A stretch of DNA of 64,000 nucleotides from Sandaracinus amylolyticus (GTDB taxonomy: Bacteria; Myxococcota_A; Polyangia; Polyangiales; Sandaracinaceae). Location: contig NZ_CP070225.1 in the NCBI RefSeq assembly GCF_021631985.1, positions 5,208,001 through 5,272,000 of the forward strand. Reading direction: 5' to 3'. The notes beneath the pieces are model-generated. The model had not been told where the DNA came from. It did not search any database and worked only from the letters and a program-made list of their open reading frames with translations. Shown piece after piece: positions 14,861 through 22,354 of this stretch. A program made the translations under genes and the position numbers. Positions within the stretch are counted from its first letter, which is position 1, and each line of letters starts with the position of its first letter.

Positions 14861-16345
14861 TCAATCCTCGGGCGCGAGGAGCGCGAGAGGGCCGCGGAGC
14901 CGATAGCCGCGCGCCGCGCGCTCGAGATGCTCACCGAGACCGGCGCGACGCAGCGTCGAGATCGCGACGTGCAATCGATGCGTCGCGGAGCGCGGCACGA
15001 GGCGCTCGCCGGGCCACGCGGCCGCGACGAGCTCGTCGTCGCCGACGTCGCGCTCGTCGGCCCAGCCGAGCACGAGGCGCGCGAGGACGCGGCGCACGGC
15101 CGCGTGGCGCGCGACCGACACGCGATGGCCGCGCACCGAGAACGACGATCCGTCGGGCTCGACCGCGAGCGCCGCGTCGGGCTCGGCGGCGGCAGCGACC
15201 GCGCGGGCGAGCGAGACGCCTGCGAGCCGAGCGAAGATGCGCGCGTCGTCGGAGCACGCCGAGGCCGCATCGAGCAGCGCGCGTGCGCGCACCACGCGGA
15301 TCACGGCCTCGCTGCGCGCACCGCTCTGCGCGAGCGCGGTCGCGAGCTCGGCGTCGAGCGCGGCCGAGAGCACTCCGAGCGCGTCGGCGCGCTCGTGATC
15401 GCCGGTCGCAGCGATGCGTCCGAGCGCATCGGCGAGCGCGAGCTCGGCGCGCGCATGGAACCGCGGCCGGCGCGCGTCGAGCACCGCGAGGAGCGCACGC
15501 GACTGCGCCGCGAAGCGCTCGAGCCCCAGCGTCTCGCAGCGCCGCACCGCGGCGCGATGATGGCGCGCCGCGACGTCGTGCTGCCCGAGCTCGTGCAGCG
15601 CGAGCCCGAGGTAGCCCTCGAAGATTGCGACCACGCTCTCGCTCTCGACGCGCCGTCCGAGCCGGATCGCGAGCGCGAATCGCTCGGCCGCGCTCTCGAC
15701 GAGACCGAGATCGTGCTCGACGTTGCCGAGCATCCCGGCGAGCACCGCGATCTCGACCTCGCCTCGATAGGTGCTCGCCGCGCGCAGCGCGCGCTCGAAG
15801 AGCGCCCGAGCATCGAGCTTCTTCCCTTCGCGCAGCGCGTGCATCGCCGCGATCGCATCGACGGACGCGAGCAGGTCGGCCCGAGGCGGGCGGATGCGCG
15901 CGACGATGCGACGCGCGTCCTCGAGGGCCGACGATGCGCGGCCGGTCAGCAGCGCGAGCCGCGCGTCGACGAGCGAGGCGCGCGCTTCGAGCGCGGGATC
16001 GTGCGAAGCACGCGCAGCATCGCGGGCGTGCGCGACGTGCTGCTCGGCCTCGCCCACGCCGCCGCGCTCGAAGGCGACCTGTGCGAGCGCGAGCTCGAGC
16101 CGTGCCCTCGCGGACGCATCGTCGCTGGCCGCGAGGGCGCGGGCGAGCGCGTCGTGCACGTCGGCGCGAGCGCCCTCGACGTCGACCAGTCGCGCGAGCG
16201 CGAGCGCCGCCGACGGATCGTGAGGCGCGCGACGTGCGGCGCGGATCAGCGCGGGTCGCGCGCGCCGGATCGCACGCAGCGACGCACCGTCGAGCGCGTC
16301 GGCCCACGAGCGCGCTCGGTGCGCGATCGACTTCGTCGTGGGCAC
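14861..16345 (-). CDS. TPR-repeat protein with C-terminal winged-helix DNA-binding-like domain
   Basis: This 494-residue protein is mostly helical, with TPR-like pairs over about residues 45-380 (for example SAAERFALAIRLGRR and VAIFEGYLGLALHELGQHDVAARHHR). The last 90 residues read SFSVRGHRVSVARH, then DDELVAAAWPGERLVPRSATHRLHVAISTLRRAGL and a GYRL wing. This matches the OmpR/PhoB-type (Trans_reg_C) winged helix often found in actinobacterial and myxobacterial regulators. It is probably a transcription factor whose TPR part senses a protein partner. No receiver or ATPase domain is present. It lies 59 bases downstream of no obvious partner; the next minus-strand gene upstream is the peroxiredoxin fusion, 9 bases away. 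Confidence 0.75.
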   Translation of the reverse strand: MPTTKSIAHRARSWADALDGASLRAIRRARPALIRAARRAPHDPSAALALARLVDVEGARADVHDALARALAASDDASARARLELALAQVAFERGGVGEAEQHVAHARDAARASHDPALEARASLVDARLALLTGRASSALEDARRIVARIRPPRADLLASVDAIAAMHALREGKKLDARALFERALRAASTYRGEVEIAVLAGMLGNVEHDLGLVESAAERFALAIRLGRRVESESVVAIFEGYLGLALHELGQHDVAARHHRAAVRRCETLGLERFAAQSRALLAVLDARRPRFHARAELALADALGRIAATGDHERADALGVLSAALDAELATALAQSGARSEAVIRVVRARALLDAASACSDDARIFARLAGVSLARAVAAAAEPDAALAVEPDGSSFSVRGHRVSVARHAAVRRVLARLVLGWADERDVGDDELVAAAWPGERLVPRSATHRLHVAISTLRRAGLGEHLERAARGYRLRGPLALLAPED

Positions 16346-16354
16346 CCGCGGAGA

Positions 16355-17086
16355 CTACACCGCGCGCTTCGCGAGCCACTGCTCGAGCTGATCGGCGCCG
16401 CCGATGCGCGTGCCGTCGACGAAGATCTGGGGGGTCGTCGCGGCGCCCGCCATCGCGCGCAGGAGGCGCGGCGTGCTGCGCACCTCCTGCCATCGCAGGC
16501 CCGCGCCCGTGAGGAGCTCGCGCGCGCGAGCGCAGTGGGTGCAGCCGGGCTTCGTGAGCATCGCGACGTCGAGCGGTGAGGGCGCCGCGCCCTGCGAGAG
16601 ATAGCGGAGCATCGTGTCCGCGTCGGAGACGTCGTAGGGATCGCCCGCGACCTCCTTCTCGACGAAGAGCTTCTGCACGACTCCGTCGTTCACGAGCATC
16701 GAGTAGCGCCAGCTGCGCGGGCCGAAGCCGAGCTCGCGCTTGTCGACGAGGAAGCCGAGCGCGCGCGTGAGGTCACCGTTGCCGTCGGGCAGGAGGCGCA
16801 CGCGCTCGACGCCCTGATCGCGGCCCCACGCCTCCATCACGAACGCGTCGTTGACCGAGACGCAGACGATCTCGTCGACGCCGTGCTGCGCGAGGTCTCC
16901 CGCGAGCTCTTCGTAGCGGGGCACGTGCGACGTCGAGCACGTCGGCGTGAACGCGCCCGGGAGACCGAACACGACGACGTTGCGCCCGCCGAAGAGCTCG
17001 CGCGTCGCGACGTCCTTCCACTGCCCGTTCTCGCGCACCCGGAGCGTGAGGTCGGGGATGCGCTGGCCTTCGCGGATCGGCTCCAT
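16355..17086 (-). CDS. Hybrid peroxiredoxin-glutaredoxin (Prx5-Grx fusion)
   Basis: This 243-residue protein fuses two domains. Residues 1-165 are a type 5 peroxiredoxin with the peroxidatic motif PGAFTPTCS (Cys50). Residues 173-243 are a glutaredoxin with a CTHC active site (Cys182, Cys185) and TTPQIFVDGTRIGG for glutathione binding. Such hybrids, known from Haemophilus influenzae and Neisseria, reduce hydrogen and alkyl peroxides with glutathione through the built-in glutaredoxin. It should be cytoplasmic. Start 17086 (MEPIREGQ) was chosen by family length; an ATG at 17098 is in frame. It is divergent from an unknown gene whose start abuts a 12-bp palindrome. Confidence 0.92.
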   Translation of the reverse strand: MEPIREGQRIPDLTLRVRENGQWKDVATRELFGGRNVVVFGLPGAFTPTCSTSHVPRYEELAGDLAQHGVDEIVCVSVNDAFVMEAWGRDQGVERVRLLPDGNGDLTRALGFLVDKRELGFGPRSWRYSMLVNDGVVQKLFVEKEVAGDPYDVSDADTMLRYLSQGAAPSPLDVAMLTKPGCTHCARARELLTGAGLRWQEVRSTPRLLRAMAGAATTPQIFVDGTRIGGADQLEQWLAKRAV

Positions 17087-18286: not shown

Positions 18287-19075
18287 TCAGCGCGTGACGC
18301 GGAGGTCGAAGCGCTCCTCGCCGACGAAGAGCGCGATGGCGAGCGCTCCATCACCGTCGACGTGGCCCGACCAGTAGCCCGGCTGCATCGAGGTGGTGCG
18401 CAGGCCCTGTCCTTCGAGCCGCAGCGCAGCGTCGCTCGTCGCGTACGCCGCGAGCTGCCCGTCGTCGAACGTGTACACCTCGACGAGCGCCGCGCCGGTC
18501 CGCGGATCGTCCACCTGCGCGACGCGCCGTCCGCTCGCGGGATCGCGCATGGCCTCGCCGTCCGCTGCGGCGAGCATCACCGGTGCGCGCGTCGTGTCGA
18601 CGCCCGCCGCGGTCCGCAGCGCCCACGCGAGCTCTTCGCGGGCGCGCGACGATGCCCGGATGCGGCGCGCGATGCTCGCCGCGTCGTACGGATCGAGCCG
18701 CCCCGAGAGCAGGCGCGCGACGTCGCGCGGCGAAGGCTCGGCCGCCGCGTTGGAAGAACGCGGCGCGGGCTCGGGATCGGGCGCGCGGCTCGCCAGCGCA
18801 CGCAGACCGTCACGCGCGAGCGTGATCGCGATGCGCAGCGCCTCCTCTTCGTCCTCGTCGTCGCGGCGCTCCGCACCTGCGTGGAGCAAGGCGCGCTGTC
18901 CGACGCGGCGGAGATCCTCACGCGCGCGCCGCGACGTGTCGGGGAGCGCGCCCGTCACCTCGAGCGCGACCGAGAGCGCGAGCGCCTCGAGCACCGGCCC
19001 GATCGCGTCGCCCTCGCGCCACGACGCGGCCGCCCGTGCGCGCTCTTCCCAGGCCCGCTGCAGCTCGTCCGTCAT
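18287..19075 (-). CDS. Hypothetical protein, third gene of the sigma-like unit
   Basis: This 262-residue soluble protein has an N-terminal helical half (TDELQRAWEERARAAASW), an acidic stretch RRDDEDEEEA, then a segment RDVARLLSGRLDPYDAASIARRIRASSRAREELAWALR. The latter resembles the N-terminal helix bundle found before anti-sigma and DUF-type regulatory domains. The C-terminal third is beta-rich (VYTFDDGQLAAYATSDAALRLEG). There is no membrane segment and no zinc motif. Its ATG overlaps the stop of the 66-residue gene (ATGA), so all three proteins of the unit are probably made together. A role as regulator of the sigma-like protein is an inference from position. Confidence 0.62.
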   Translation of the reverse strand: MTDELQRAWEERARAAASWREGDAIGPVLEALALSVALEVTGALPDTSRRAREDLRRVGQRALLHAGAERRDDEDEEEALRIAITLARDGLRALASRAPDPEPAPRSSNAAAEPSPRDVARLLSGRLDPYDAASIARRIRASSRAREELAWALRTAAGVDTTRAPVMLAAADGEAMRDPASGRRVAQVDDPRTGAALVEVYTFDDGQLAAYATSDAALRLEGQGLRTTSMQPGYWSGHVDGDGALAIALFVGEERFDLRVTR

Positions 19076-19272
19076 CGCGCAGCTCCCTCGATCCCCCCGA
19101 GATCCTCGCACGCCGACCGCGGTCGCTGGTAGTCGTTGGGCACCAGCCGGTCCGACGCCGACATCGCGTTCGGCGACACGGCCTCTCTCTGGAACGAGGC
19201 GGCTCTCGGAGCGGCGACGGCGTGCATCGAGCGCCCCCGACGCCGCGACCGCGACGCGACTGACGCGCTCAC
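19072..19272 (-). CDS. 66-residue overlapping small protein in the sigma-like unit
   Basis: This short gene exactly bridges two neighbours. Its GTG (19270-19272) overlaps the sigma-like stop as GTGA, and its TGA (19072-19074) overlaps the next ATG as ATGA. The 66 residues are basic at the N-terminus (SASVASRSRRRGRS) and polar later, with one Cys and no membrane segment. Function is unknown. The double overlap is the main evidence that it is translated. Without it the two flanking genes would leave an unexplained gap of 193 bases that stays open in just this frame. Confidence 0.5.
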   Translation of the reverse strand: MSASVASRSRRRGRSMHAVAAPRAASFQREAVSPNAMSASDRLVPNDYQRPRSACEDLGGIEGAAR

Positions 19273-20027
19273 GATCCCTCCCCACGGCGGCGCGTCGGGC
19301 GCGGACGTCCCGCATCGGCCCGGCGCGCGCTCACCAGCTCGCGCACCGCGGCCGCGATGTCGGACGCGGTCGAGCCCTCGCCCGCCTCGCGCACCCAGCG
19401 ATCGAGCGCGGCGAGCACCCACGGACGCCCACGCTCGACCCACTTGTAGACGCGATCGCGCGAGAGGGGCTCGCCCGCGTCGAGCGCCGCGGCGATCGCG
19501 TCGAAGTCCGCCTCGAGCACCGCGCGATGGAGGGTCGCCCGCGCCTGCATGCGCTTGAGGTGACGGCTCGCCGCGTTGGGCTCGGTGGCCTGCAGCTCCG
19601 CCTCGACGTGATCCTCGATCGTCGCGAGGACGCGCTCGAGCGCGTTGCCGTCGAGATCGCCCCCCGCGTCGCCCTCGAGGCGATCGAGCAGAGGCGTCGC
19701 GTCGTCGCCCTCGGTGCCGCGATCGAGCCCGCGCTGCACGGGATCGCGCTTGCGCATCCGGAAGCCGTCGACCTTCTTGCGGCGGTGGATCGTCGAGACC
19801 CACTTCGCGGCTTGCAGCGGGACCGAGGCCTCCATCGTCCGCACGTTGCGCGCGATCGCGAGCAGCGTCTCCTGGCGCGCCTCGTCGGCATCGGCGCCCC
19901 CGGCGGGCCAGGTCTCGCGCAGCCACGCATCGACGGCACGCCAGTGCGCGTCGTGGCGCCGCGCGAGGGGGTCCTCGGAGTCGCGGAGCGCGATCAGGGC
20001 GGCGAAGAGCGTGTCGGGCGAGGACAT
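19269..20027 (-). CDS. ECF sigma-factor-like protein
   Basis: This protein has 252 residues. Residues 35-100 (WRAVDAWLRETWPAGG, DADEARQETLLAIARNV, AAKWVSTIHRRKKVDGFRMRK) follow the layout of ECF sigma region 2: the core-binding helix and then the promoter-melting helix with a W-V-x-T-I-x-R-R element. A typical region 4 helix-turn-helix is not evident. LSRDRVYKWVERGRPWVLAALDRW near residue 185 may be a divergent one. The gene begins a three-gene overlapping unit and could direct or modulate transcription of nearby genes. It may instead be a sigma-derived adaptor that no longer binds -35 DNA. Confidence 0.52.
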   Translation of the reverse strand: MSSPDTLFAALIALRDSEDPLARRHDAHWRAVDAWLRETWPAGGADADEARQETLLAIARNVRTMEASVPLQAAKWVSTIHRRKKVDGFRMRKRDPVQRGLDRGTEGDDATPLLDRLEGDAGGDLDGNALERVLATIEDHVEAELQATEPNAASRHLKRMQARATLHRAVLEADFDAIAAALDAGEPLSRDRVYKWVERGRPWVLAALDRWVREAGEGSTASDIAAAVRELVSARRADAGRPRPTRRRGEGS

Positions 20028-20079: not shown

Positions 20080-21978
20080 TCAGATCGCCTCGCACCGCGC
20101 GATCAGCTCCTGCAGCGCGCGCCCGAGCTCGACGTGGCTCTCGAGCGCTCGCTCGACGCGCCCCCGGGCCGCGCCCAGCCATCGAGGCGCGTCGCCCCAC
20201 GTCGGCAGCGCCGCGAGCGCGGTGCGGGTACGCGCCGTCGCGTCCTCGTCGAGCCGTGCGCTCGCGACGCGCACCTCCGCCTCGACGAGCACGTTCACGT
20301 GCGCCAGCGAGCGCAGCCCGGGCTCGAGCGCGCGACCGTGCGCGAGCGTCGAGCTCGCGAGGAGGTGGAGCCCACGCTCGCGCGCGTCGCGATCGTCCCC
20401 TCGTGCGAGCGCGAGCCCGAGATGACGCCGCGCGCGCAGTCCGGGGAGCGGATGCTCGTGCAGCGCCTCGTGTACCGCGGGCACGTCGAGCACCTCGCGC
20501 GCCTCGGACCAGCGACCGAGCGCGACCAGCGCCCCACCCCATCCGGTGCGCACCCAGCTCTCCTTCTTGCCGCGCGCGCCGGGCTCGTCCTCCGCGACCT
20601 CGTCCATCGCGGCGCGCCACATCGCGCGCGCTTCGGCCTCGCGACCGAGCCGCCCGAGCGCCTCCATGAGGTACACGCGGCTGCGCGCTGCGTCCTCGGG
20701 CGCGTGGCGCAGCGTCAGCGCGAGCGCCTCGTCGAAGCACGCGCGTGCCGCGTCGTCGCGCCGCCGGCCCATCTCGACGAGCCCCGCGCAGCCGAGCGCC
20801 TTGATGTGCTCGCCGCGCAGCCGCGCACGCCGGGCGATCGTGATCGCACGCCGCGCTGCCTGCGCTGCAGCGCGGAACCGGAAGAGCTTCAGCTCCGTCA
20901 TCGCGCGCTGTTGCTCGAGCGCGGTGAGCGGCGCGTCGGGGATCGCGTCCGCCTCGCGCTCCGCGATCGCACGCGCGCTCTCGAGCACGCGCAGGCTGCC
21001 CTCGGGATCGCCGAGGTGACGCCGCGCGGCGGCCAGCCGTGAGAGCGCTTCGATCTGCAGATCGGGCCGCGCATCGGGCAGCGTGCCGGCGACGCGCGCG
21101 AGGCGCTCGTCGATCGCAGGCCATCGATAGCCGCGCCATCCCTCGGCGAAGAGCGCACGCGCCTCGCGCACCGCGCGCTCGGGATCGCGACGGGCGCGCA
21201 CCGCGACGAGCGTCGCCTCGAGCAGCGCGTCGATCGTGCCCACCGCGACGATCTCGATCCCCGCGTTGGCGCTGCGCGCTTCGTCCTCCTGCTCCGCCGG
21301 CACGACGATCGCGCCGCACCCCGCGTCGCGCGCCGCGCGCACCTTCGCGGCGATCGCGCCCACCCGCGCGATCACACCGCCGCGCAGCGCACCGGTGACC
21401 GCGATCCCGCTCCGCGCCGCGCGCTCGCTCCACAACGACACCGCGCTCACCAGCGCCGCCGCGCCGAGCGACTCGCCGTCGATCGCCACGCCCTCGAGCG
21501 CGCGGGGCCGCGCCGCCACGAGCCGGAAGCGATCCACCGCGCGCGGAGGTGCCGCCCGCTCGGCACCGATCGCCAGGGCGTCCGCGAACGCCGCGCTCGC
21601 ACGCGCGCCGAGCGCCGGTCGATCGCCACCGCCTCCCGCGGGGTCGAACTCGATCCAGAGCATCCGCACCAGCGCCTCGCCGGCCGATGCATCGAAGAGC
21701 GGCACGCGCACCGCATGCGGGGGCGGCGTCTCCTCGCACGCACCGATCGCGGCCTCTTCGATCCCGAGCGCCCGCGCCCGGGCCCGCAGCGCGATCGCGA
21801 CGCTCCCGGGATCGGCCAGCGAGAACGCGCGCGCCGCGAGCTCGCGTGCGTAACGGCGCCCGGCGACGCCCTCGGCGCGCTCGGCGCGCGCCACGAAGGG
21901 CTCGACGCGCCCGGCGCGCAGCGCGCGCTCGATCGACTCGGGATCGAGCGCGTGCTCGGCGATCGGCAACGCGCTCAA
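20080..21978 (-). CDS. Lon-type (S16) protease-like domain fused to TPR repeats
   Basis: This protein has 632 residues. Residues 115-230 match the proteolytic domain of Lon: EGVAIDGESLGAAALVSAVSLW with Ser170 where Lon has its catalytic serine, then ALRGGVIARVGAIAAKVRAARDAG with Lys212 in the position of the catalytic lysine, followed by GAIVVPAEQ. The Ser-Lys gap of 42 fits Lon (43 in E. coli). There is no AAA+ ATPase part. Instead residues 290-625 form about eight TPR-like helical pairs. A TPR-guided, ATP-independent protease or a protease-derived scaffold is possible. The annotated start is a TTG. It lies 7 bases after the TerB-like gene and is probably co-transcribed with it. Confidence 0.68.
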   Translation of the reverse strand: MSALPIAEHALDPESIERALRAGRVEPFVARAERAEGVAGRRYARELAARAFSLADPGSVAIALRARARALGIEEAAIGACEETPPPHAVRVPLFDASAGEALVRMLWIEFDPAGGGGDRPALGARASAAFADALAIGAERAAPPRAVDRFRLVAARPRALEGVAIDGESLGAAALVSAVSLWSERAARSGIAVTGALRGGVIARVGAIAAKVRAARDAGCGAIVVPAEQEDEARSANAGIEIVAVGTIDALLEATLVAVRARRDPERAVREARALFAEGWRGYRWPAIDERLARVAGTLPDARPDLQIEALSRLAAARRHLGDPEGSLRVLESARAIAEREADAIPDAPLTALEQQRAMTELKLFRFRAAAQAARRAITIARRARLRGEHIKALGCAGLVEMGRRRDDAARACFDEALALTLRHAPEDAARSRVYLMEALGRLGREAEARAMWRAAMDEVAEDEPGARGKKESWVRTGWGGALVALGRWSEAREVLDVPAVHEALHEHPLPGLRARRHLGLALARGDDRDARERGLHLLASSTLAHGRALEPGLRSLAHVNVLVEAEVRVASARLDEDATARTRTALAALPTWGDAPRWLGAARGRVERALESHVELGRALQELIARCEAI

Positions 21979-21985
21979 CGTGCGC

Positions 21986-22312
21986 TCAGGACAGGAGCTG
22001 CTCGAGAAGCGCCAGGTTCTCGCGCTCTTCCTCGCTGATCTCGCCGTCCGCGCCGACGATGCTCTTCGCCATCTCGAGGAAGAGCGCGCGGTGCTCGCGC
22101 GGGATGTCGTTGGGATCGACCTCGTCGGCGCGCGGCGGCAGCTCGAGCCACTTCTGGACCTGCTTCGCCTCGTCGTCGTCCAGCTTGAGCTTGCGCATCA
22201 TCTTCTGGACGAAGCTGCGCTCCTGATCCGCGATCCGCAGATCCGCCCACGCGAAGGAGCACACGAACTTCATCAGACGCAGGCGGTCTTGGCGGTCGAG
22301 GTTGCCGAGCAC
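21986..22312 (-). CDS. TerB-like (tellurite-resistance B family) protein
   Basis: This 108-residue, all-helical acidic protein has the two TerB signatures: an early FVCSFAWADLRIADQERSFV and a late SIVGADGEISEEERENLALL. The Asp/Glu pairs near both helices are the metal-binding positions in TerB. TerB proteins are cytoplasmic or membrane-peripheral adaptors in stress and phage-defence modules; other ter genes are absent here. The GTG at 22312 is chosen because AGGAGG stands five bases upstream. The frame is open to 22348 but lacks a ribosome site there. It probably forms an operon with the Lon-TPR gene. Confidence 0.8.
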   Translation of the reverse strand: MLGNLDRQDRLRLMKFVCSFAWADLRIADQERSFVQKMMRKLKLDDDEAKQVQKWLELPPRADEVDPNDIPREHRALFLEMAKSIVGADGEISEEERENLALLEQLLS

Positions 22313-22354
22313 GTGGTCCTCCTGGGCAAAAGGGGAGCGAGCATACACCGAACG

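Follow-up and report, generated by a model that had tools for sequence, protein, structure and literature searches.

A Lon-type proteolytic domain joined to TPR-like repeats is encoded with an ECF-type sigma factor and a probable soluble anti-sigma factor in Sandaracinus and other Polyangia

Analysis of a 64,000-nucleotide stretch of the Sandaracinus amylolyticus genome (hereafter, the window) identified three neighboring genes on the minus strand. The first, LonTPR (20080..21978, (-)), was an open frame of 632 aa with a TTG start and was present in one copy in the 10.96-Mb genome. It was followed, 52 nt downstream, by the gene of an ECF-type sigma factor of 252 aa (19269..20027, (-)) and then by that of protein x, a probable soluble anti-sigma factor of 262 aa (18287..19075, (-)). 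Directly upstream of LonTPR lay a TerB-like gene (21986..22348, (-); PF05099, 9.9e-9), whose stop was 7 nt from the LonTPR start, and the co-oriented, near-contiguous arrangement given in the initial annotation was thereby upheld. The conservation of that arrangement was limited to the closest family (a TerB neighbor was present in genomes G000, G001, G003, G004, G005, G007 and G008), and TerB was ruled out as a core part of the module because of its confinement to one family. Other neighbors at the locus were chromosomal genes, e.g., those for E2, peroxiredoxin and PEGA-type proteins. One further gene near the module (14861-16345, (-)) encodes a TPR protein of 494 aa, the C-terminal stretch of which looked winged-helix-like by eye; it may be a separate regulator.

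Searches with the LonTPR sequence placed it in the Lon proteolytic-domain family. Residues 165-258 matched Pfam Lon_C (PF05362; E 1e-6) with 28.9 bits, well over the gathering score of 21.1, and this was the similarity set beforehand as a test of the initial annotation. In a sequence search of the PDB, the higher-scoring matches were all Lon proteins, the best of which was B. subtilis LonBA (8dvh, 9.9e-8). LonTPR also matched Pfam TPR_2, with a score of 27.0 at a cut-off of 27. No AAA/ATPase family was identified in the Pfam scan, and no full-length Lon model in NCBIfam scored over its cut-off. As the AAA+ domain that an ATP-dependent Lon carries in the same chain was looked for in both scans and not found, LonTPR is not an ATP-dependent Lon. 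These data agreed with the initial annotation of a Lon-type protease domain that lacks AAA+ and carries TPR repeats.

The AlphaFold2 model of LonTPR, for which an alignment of 18 relatives was the input, had a pLDDT of 90.6 and a pTM of 0.88. It comprised a helical N-terminus (residues ~13-82), a mixed alpha/beta domain (~85-261) that was the Lon/S16 proteolytic domain, and 18 helices across residues 266-631. The alpha/beta domain superposed on solved Lon proteolytic domains with Z scores of up to 22.4 and an rmsd of 2.5-2.6 Å over 172-173 residues. The 18 helices represented approximately nine TPR-like pairs; the replacement of the ATPase by TPR repeats had therefore been annotated correctly, although the number of pairs had been put at about eight. 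Comparison of this helical arm to TPR proteins gave Z scores of 19.8 for LGN, 19.4 for NprR and 18.7 for RapI. Such repeats easily score high, and for this reason we limit our description of the arm to a "TPR-like solenoid".

Two residues of the Lon domain form a predicted catalytic dyad, Ser170 (21469..21471, (-); IDGESLGAA) as the nucleophile and Lys212 (21343..21345, (-); VGAIAAKVRAA) as the general base. In the alignment to 8dvh, Ser170 was paired with the serine of DGPSAG and Lys212 with the lysine of GGVIPKIKAA. Their spacing of 42 residues, which had been noted as Lon-like, was confirmed from the codons and compares with 43 residues between the aligned Ser and Lys of 8dvh. In the predicted model, the Lon-fold superposition (~172 residues, 2.5 Å) covers both residues. 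Ser170 was invariant in 15 of 15 relatives and Lys212 in 16 of 16, and four other residues of the same pocket region (G168, L171, S178 and V206) were likewise invariant. As identity among these relatives is 27-93%, the alignment indicates that the invariance of both predicted dyad residues is beyond chance, and it argues for an active enzyme as opposed to a dead fold.

A Lon-like fold does not always denote proteolysis. In RadA, a Lon-like domain serves without acting as a protease, and for TPR proteins of the Rap/NprR type binding alone is the means of regulation. Both the RadA domain and TPR proteins of that type were among the structural matches of LonTPR, consistent with LonTPR being a non-proteolytic partner switch in which the TPR arm binds x or the sigma factor and displaces the other. 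We consider such a switch improbable, since the invariance of Ser170, Lys212 and their motif environment would be unexpected were catalysis dispensable.

Profile searches identified LonTPR in 16 of 115 related genomes, the source genome included. Matches in G006 and G064 proved to be ordinary Lon proteins and were left out of this count, as were order-wide profile matches of ~1e-11 to 1e-18, most of which were ordinary Lon with open frames near 800 aa. At E 1e-22, no LonTPR was found beyond these genomes among 377 sampled from the phylum, and peptide-pattern searches with the single protein gave no matches. A search with a 5-row alignment identified five loci, in Sandaracinus, Sandaracinaceae, Polyangia and Deltaproteobacteria MAGs, and the same alignment had no matches in viral contigs. 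The named relatives of LonTPR belong to Sandaracinus and other Polyangia.

Assignment of the gene downstream of LonTPR was based on its family. All 12 members examined matched Sigma70_r2 (Sigma70 region 2), the best at 1.1e-7, and the family profile retrieved solved ECF sigma factors (best SigL, 7e-7); the window member alone scored 0.0088 (16.3 bits) against Sigma70_r2, under the cut-off of 24. A match to Sigma70 region 4 was obtained for one of the 12 members and was weak (0.037), and a conserved helix (YKWVERGR) was present at the expected place. Homology thus indicates that the gene encodes an ECF-type sigma factor, with region 4 the less firm part of the assignment. An identity with CAS_III-E_sigma (NCBIfam) was rejected, as the match (0.018) was far under the cut-off. 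The C-terminal tail of the family is basic and conserved. Beyond the closest family, sigma members (L026:12723-13802, L029:5166-5972, L031:3238-4119, L027:1264-2097 and L081:898-1614) had in common a V(S/R)P...TSVQ-like C-terminal tail, possibly a binding or processing motif.

The AlphaFold2 model of protein x (pLDDT 86.1, pTM 0.60) had no membrane helix and consisted of a helical N-terminal part (residues 3-157), a disordered linker (159-173) with pLDDT below 50, and a beta domain (183-261). Alignment with hhalign and conserved motif columns located an anti-sigma (zf-HC2)-like segment at residues ~112-155 (18611..18742, (-)). The zinc anti-sigma motif, HX3CX2C, was kept in the same columns of the x proteins of G016 and G014 and was lost in that of the window; zf-HC2 was also the sole Pfam match of the G016 protein (E 0.12). 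When the x profile was compared by hhalign to anti-sigma domains from the same order, it scored 27.3, with 15.8 the highest value that 300 column shuffles gave, and removal of the members with the zinc motif left a score of 17.8, which one of 300 shuffles exceeded. The hhalign probability of these matches was low (10-22%), and we therefore consider them a strong lead and not proof. The whole of x matched no known family over threshold, anti-sigma families included. Foldseek returned nothing significant for the x model and the helical part had no fold match; a second fold search matched only the beta domain, to adaptin-ear/Ig-like structures with Z scores of no more than 6.7, which may reflect a common arrangement only. 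Together, its adjacency to the sigma gene, the HX3CX2C motif in two members and the profile score above those of shuffled columns point to x as a probable soluble anti-sigma factor.

The low-confidence linker of x contains the residues LAA (168-170; 18566..18574, (-)). At this position, [LVI]AA was present in 16 of 16 intact members, and the residues just before it varied. The motif is a candidate cut site or degron, although its conservation may instead be structural. A second sigma-x pair was observed in G016 (L081:898-2144), in which the x copy was truncated and the LAA motif gone.

Protein x was found in exactly the 16 genomes with LonTPR and in none of the 99 others, as determined by profile search of the 115 related genomes, and none was found in the rest of the 317 genomes of the class. 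As the x profile was built from 12 of the 16 x genes, chosen as neighbors of LonTPR, the independent part of this co-occurrence is the presence of x in the four remaining LonTPR genomes and its absence from the 99 without LonTPR; the counts are raw ones for genomes related by descent. The sigma partner was identified by profile search in 15 of the 16 LonTPR genomes. The sigma profile also matched, more weakly (1.9e-14), a locus in G028 (G028:C417:1017-1556), which has neither LonTPR nor x.

Gene maps showed LonTPR, the sigma gene and x clustered in 12 genomes, despite inversions, insertions and changes of order and strand; in G002 and G043, for example, x and sigma were on the strand opposite to LonTPR. 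The x gene adjoined the sigma gene wherever both were assembled. In G014, LonTPR and x were on separate short contigs, with x at a contig end, so neither their linkage nor the missing sigma gene can be judged. The clustering exceeded background synteny, as TerB, E2 and PEGA-type neighbors were conserved only in the closest family. In two genomes, G003 and G005, a protein of 472-475 aa was encoded between LonTPR and sigma (L024:11408-12835 and L033:1218-2636), whose features were a coiled coil at the N-terminus, a probable membrane helix and repeated beta segments, and which had no significant Pfam match.

The genes that a sigma factor controls often lie next to its own gene, and LonTPR might thus be a target or effector of the regulon, with the sigma factor, freed by other means, driving expression of LonTPR, which would degrade other proteins under stress. 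In keeping with this, LonTPR was unlinked from the sigma-x pair in three genomes (G004, G008 and G011), where it was on a different contig and sigma and x stayed adjacent. In addition, genes for PrsW family intramembrane peptidases (PF13367, ~1e-48 to 1e-51; L025:7950-9062 and L080:3674-4732, with 59% mutual identity) were observed in or beside the sigma-x cluster of two distant genomes, G016 and G011. PrsW starts the proteolysis of RsiW (PMC10202637), so its presence beside sigma and x fits anti-sigma proteolysis and offers another possible protease for that role, although it may act on something else. However, the x model had no transmembrane helix, which makes an intramembrane protease an unlikely direct cutter of x, and it is LonTPR and not PrsW that is common to all 16 genomes. 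We consider the effector role unlikely.

Based on these findings, we think it reasonably probable that LonTPR, the sigma factor and x form a three-protein regulatory module in which LonTPR cuts x and thereby frees the sigma factor. As LonTPR is encoded beside a sigma factor and its likely inhibitor, it would probably turn genes on by cutting that inhibitor. In the proposed mechanism, x would bind and block the sigma factor. LonTPR would need no ATP, because its AAA+ motor is replaced by the TPR solenoid, and the solenoid would act as a sensor, a substrate-docking arm or both. Binding of a signal molecule or of the x-sigma complex to the solenoid would cause the Lon domains to align or oligomerize, and Ser170 and Lys212 would then cut x, most likely in the linker between the sigma-binding helices and the beta domain, the part of x that contains the conserved [LVI]AA. 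The sigma factor would be released, perhaps after a housekeeping protease had degraded an x remnant with an exposed LAA-like end, and would redirect transcription to its putative target genes. The idea of an LAA-type degron comes from ssrA- and RseA-like tails, and we speculate that the cut leaves one on x.

With regard to the putative signal, a gene for a Fur-like regulator adjoined x in G007, G003 and G005 (L023:6871-7248, L024:14933-15346 and L033:4391-4816; Pfam FUR 5.3e-37 in G007, with assignment by eye in G003 and G005), and a peroxiredoxin-glutaredoxin gene was near the module in the window (16355-17086). These neighbors offer a weak hint that the signal is related to redox state or metals.

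Regulated proteolysis of anti-sigma factors is known for RseA, which is cut by DegS and RseP, and for RsiW, which is cut by PrsW and RasP. The outcome proposed here, release of an ECF sigma factor by anti-sigma proteolysis, is the same; unlike in those systems, no membrane step would be needed, as x is predicted to be soluble and LonTPR cytosolic. Relative to LonA, LonB and LonC (MEROPS S16), LonTPR has the same proteolytic fold and Ser-Lys dyad context, but it has a TPR array in place of the ATPase and TGA or variants in place of the conserved TGE.

Two AAA-free precedents are from CRISPR systems. In CalpL, a Lon domain is joined to a SAVED sensor that binds cA4; the protein oligomerizes and cleaves CalpT, an anti-sigma factor, so that CalpS is set free (PMC11417357). 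LonTPR similarly has a Lon domain with a presumed sensor instead of AAA+ and is encoded beside genes for an ECF sigma factor and a putative anti-sigma factor, but that sensor would be a TPR solenoid that follows the Lon domain, x is not recognizably CalpT, and the cleavage role of LonTPR is a predicted one. In type III-E systems, the TPR-CHAT protease Csx29 cuts Csx30, the inhibitor of CASP-sigma (PMC10028731). The likeness here is of a TPR-carrying, ATP-independent protease encoded with an ECF sigma factor and with a sigma inhibitor that has a candidate loop for cleavage; the differences are that the protease domain of LonTPR is Lon (Ser-Lys) and not CHAT (Cys-His), and that there is no Cas7-11 or CRISPR. 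No SAVED or CARF domain was identified in LonTPR, for which the Pfam scan gave only Lon_C and TPR. A PADLOC match to CARF_LON (1.5e-4) was rejected, as it fell on the Lon region (residues 174-273), and a CRISPR or defense setting was likewise rejected, the PADLOC matches being weak and on the Lon domain. No 24-mer that would indicate CRISPR repeats occurred at least three times in the window, and no cas genes were seen at the locus. LonTPR is therefore CalpL-like in its proposed mode of action, yet it is not CalpL, having neither SAVED nor a CRISPR link. By analogy, the locus would combine a CalpL-type Lon catalytic domain with a Csx29-type TPR arm, without CRISPR repeats in the window.

Both of these AAA-free precedents cut the anti-sigma side, which bears on the alternative that the sigma factor, and not x, is what LonTPR cuts or degrades, thus shutting the response off. 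In an alpha-proteobacterium, the AAA+ Lon protease is reported to degrade SigT, a sigma factor (PMC10662116), and the conserved basic C-terminal tail of the sigma family could be read in the same way. A LonTPR without an unfoldase, however, should favor limited cuts in flexible loops, a preference that the x linker with its conserved motif fits. We regard degradation of the sigma factor as quite improbable and retain cleavage of x as the preferred reading.

A more specific form of the preferred reading, which we offer tentatively and think on balance doubtful, is a cascade independent of both CRISPR and ATP. A TPR-gated Lon protease would cut a soluble anti-sigma factor at [LVI]AA to leave an LAA-like C-terminal degron, a housekeeping protease would take the remnant and the ECF sigma factor would be freed; CalpL, CalpT and CalpS would in that case represent one instance, recruited by CRISPR, of a broader class of Lon-sensor fusions in control of sigma factors. 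Our search of the open literature (5.39 million papers), outside of which most subscription papers lie, found no published description of a LonTPR-sigma-x module and brought up the two CRISPR systems.

The analysis provides testable functions for three families that are now labeled "TPR protein", weak sigma factor and hypothetical protein, in a compact cytosolic system of which the protease, candidate substrate and output can all be tested. If the proposal is correct, the control of sigma factors by AAA-free Lon proteases would be a general signaling design and not a peculiarity of CRISPR, with exchangeable sensors on the Lon domain, SAVED in CalpL and TPR in LonTPR.
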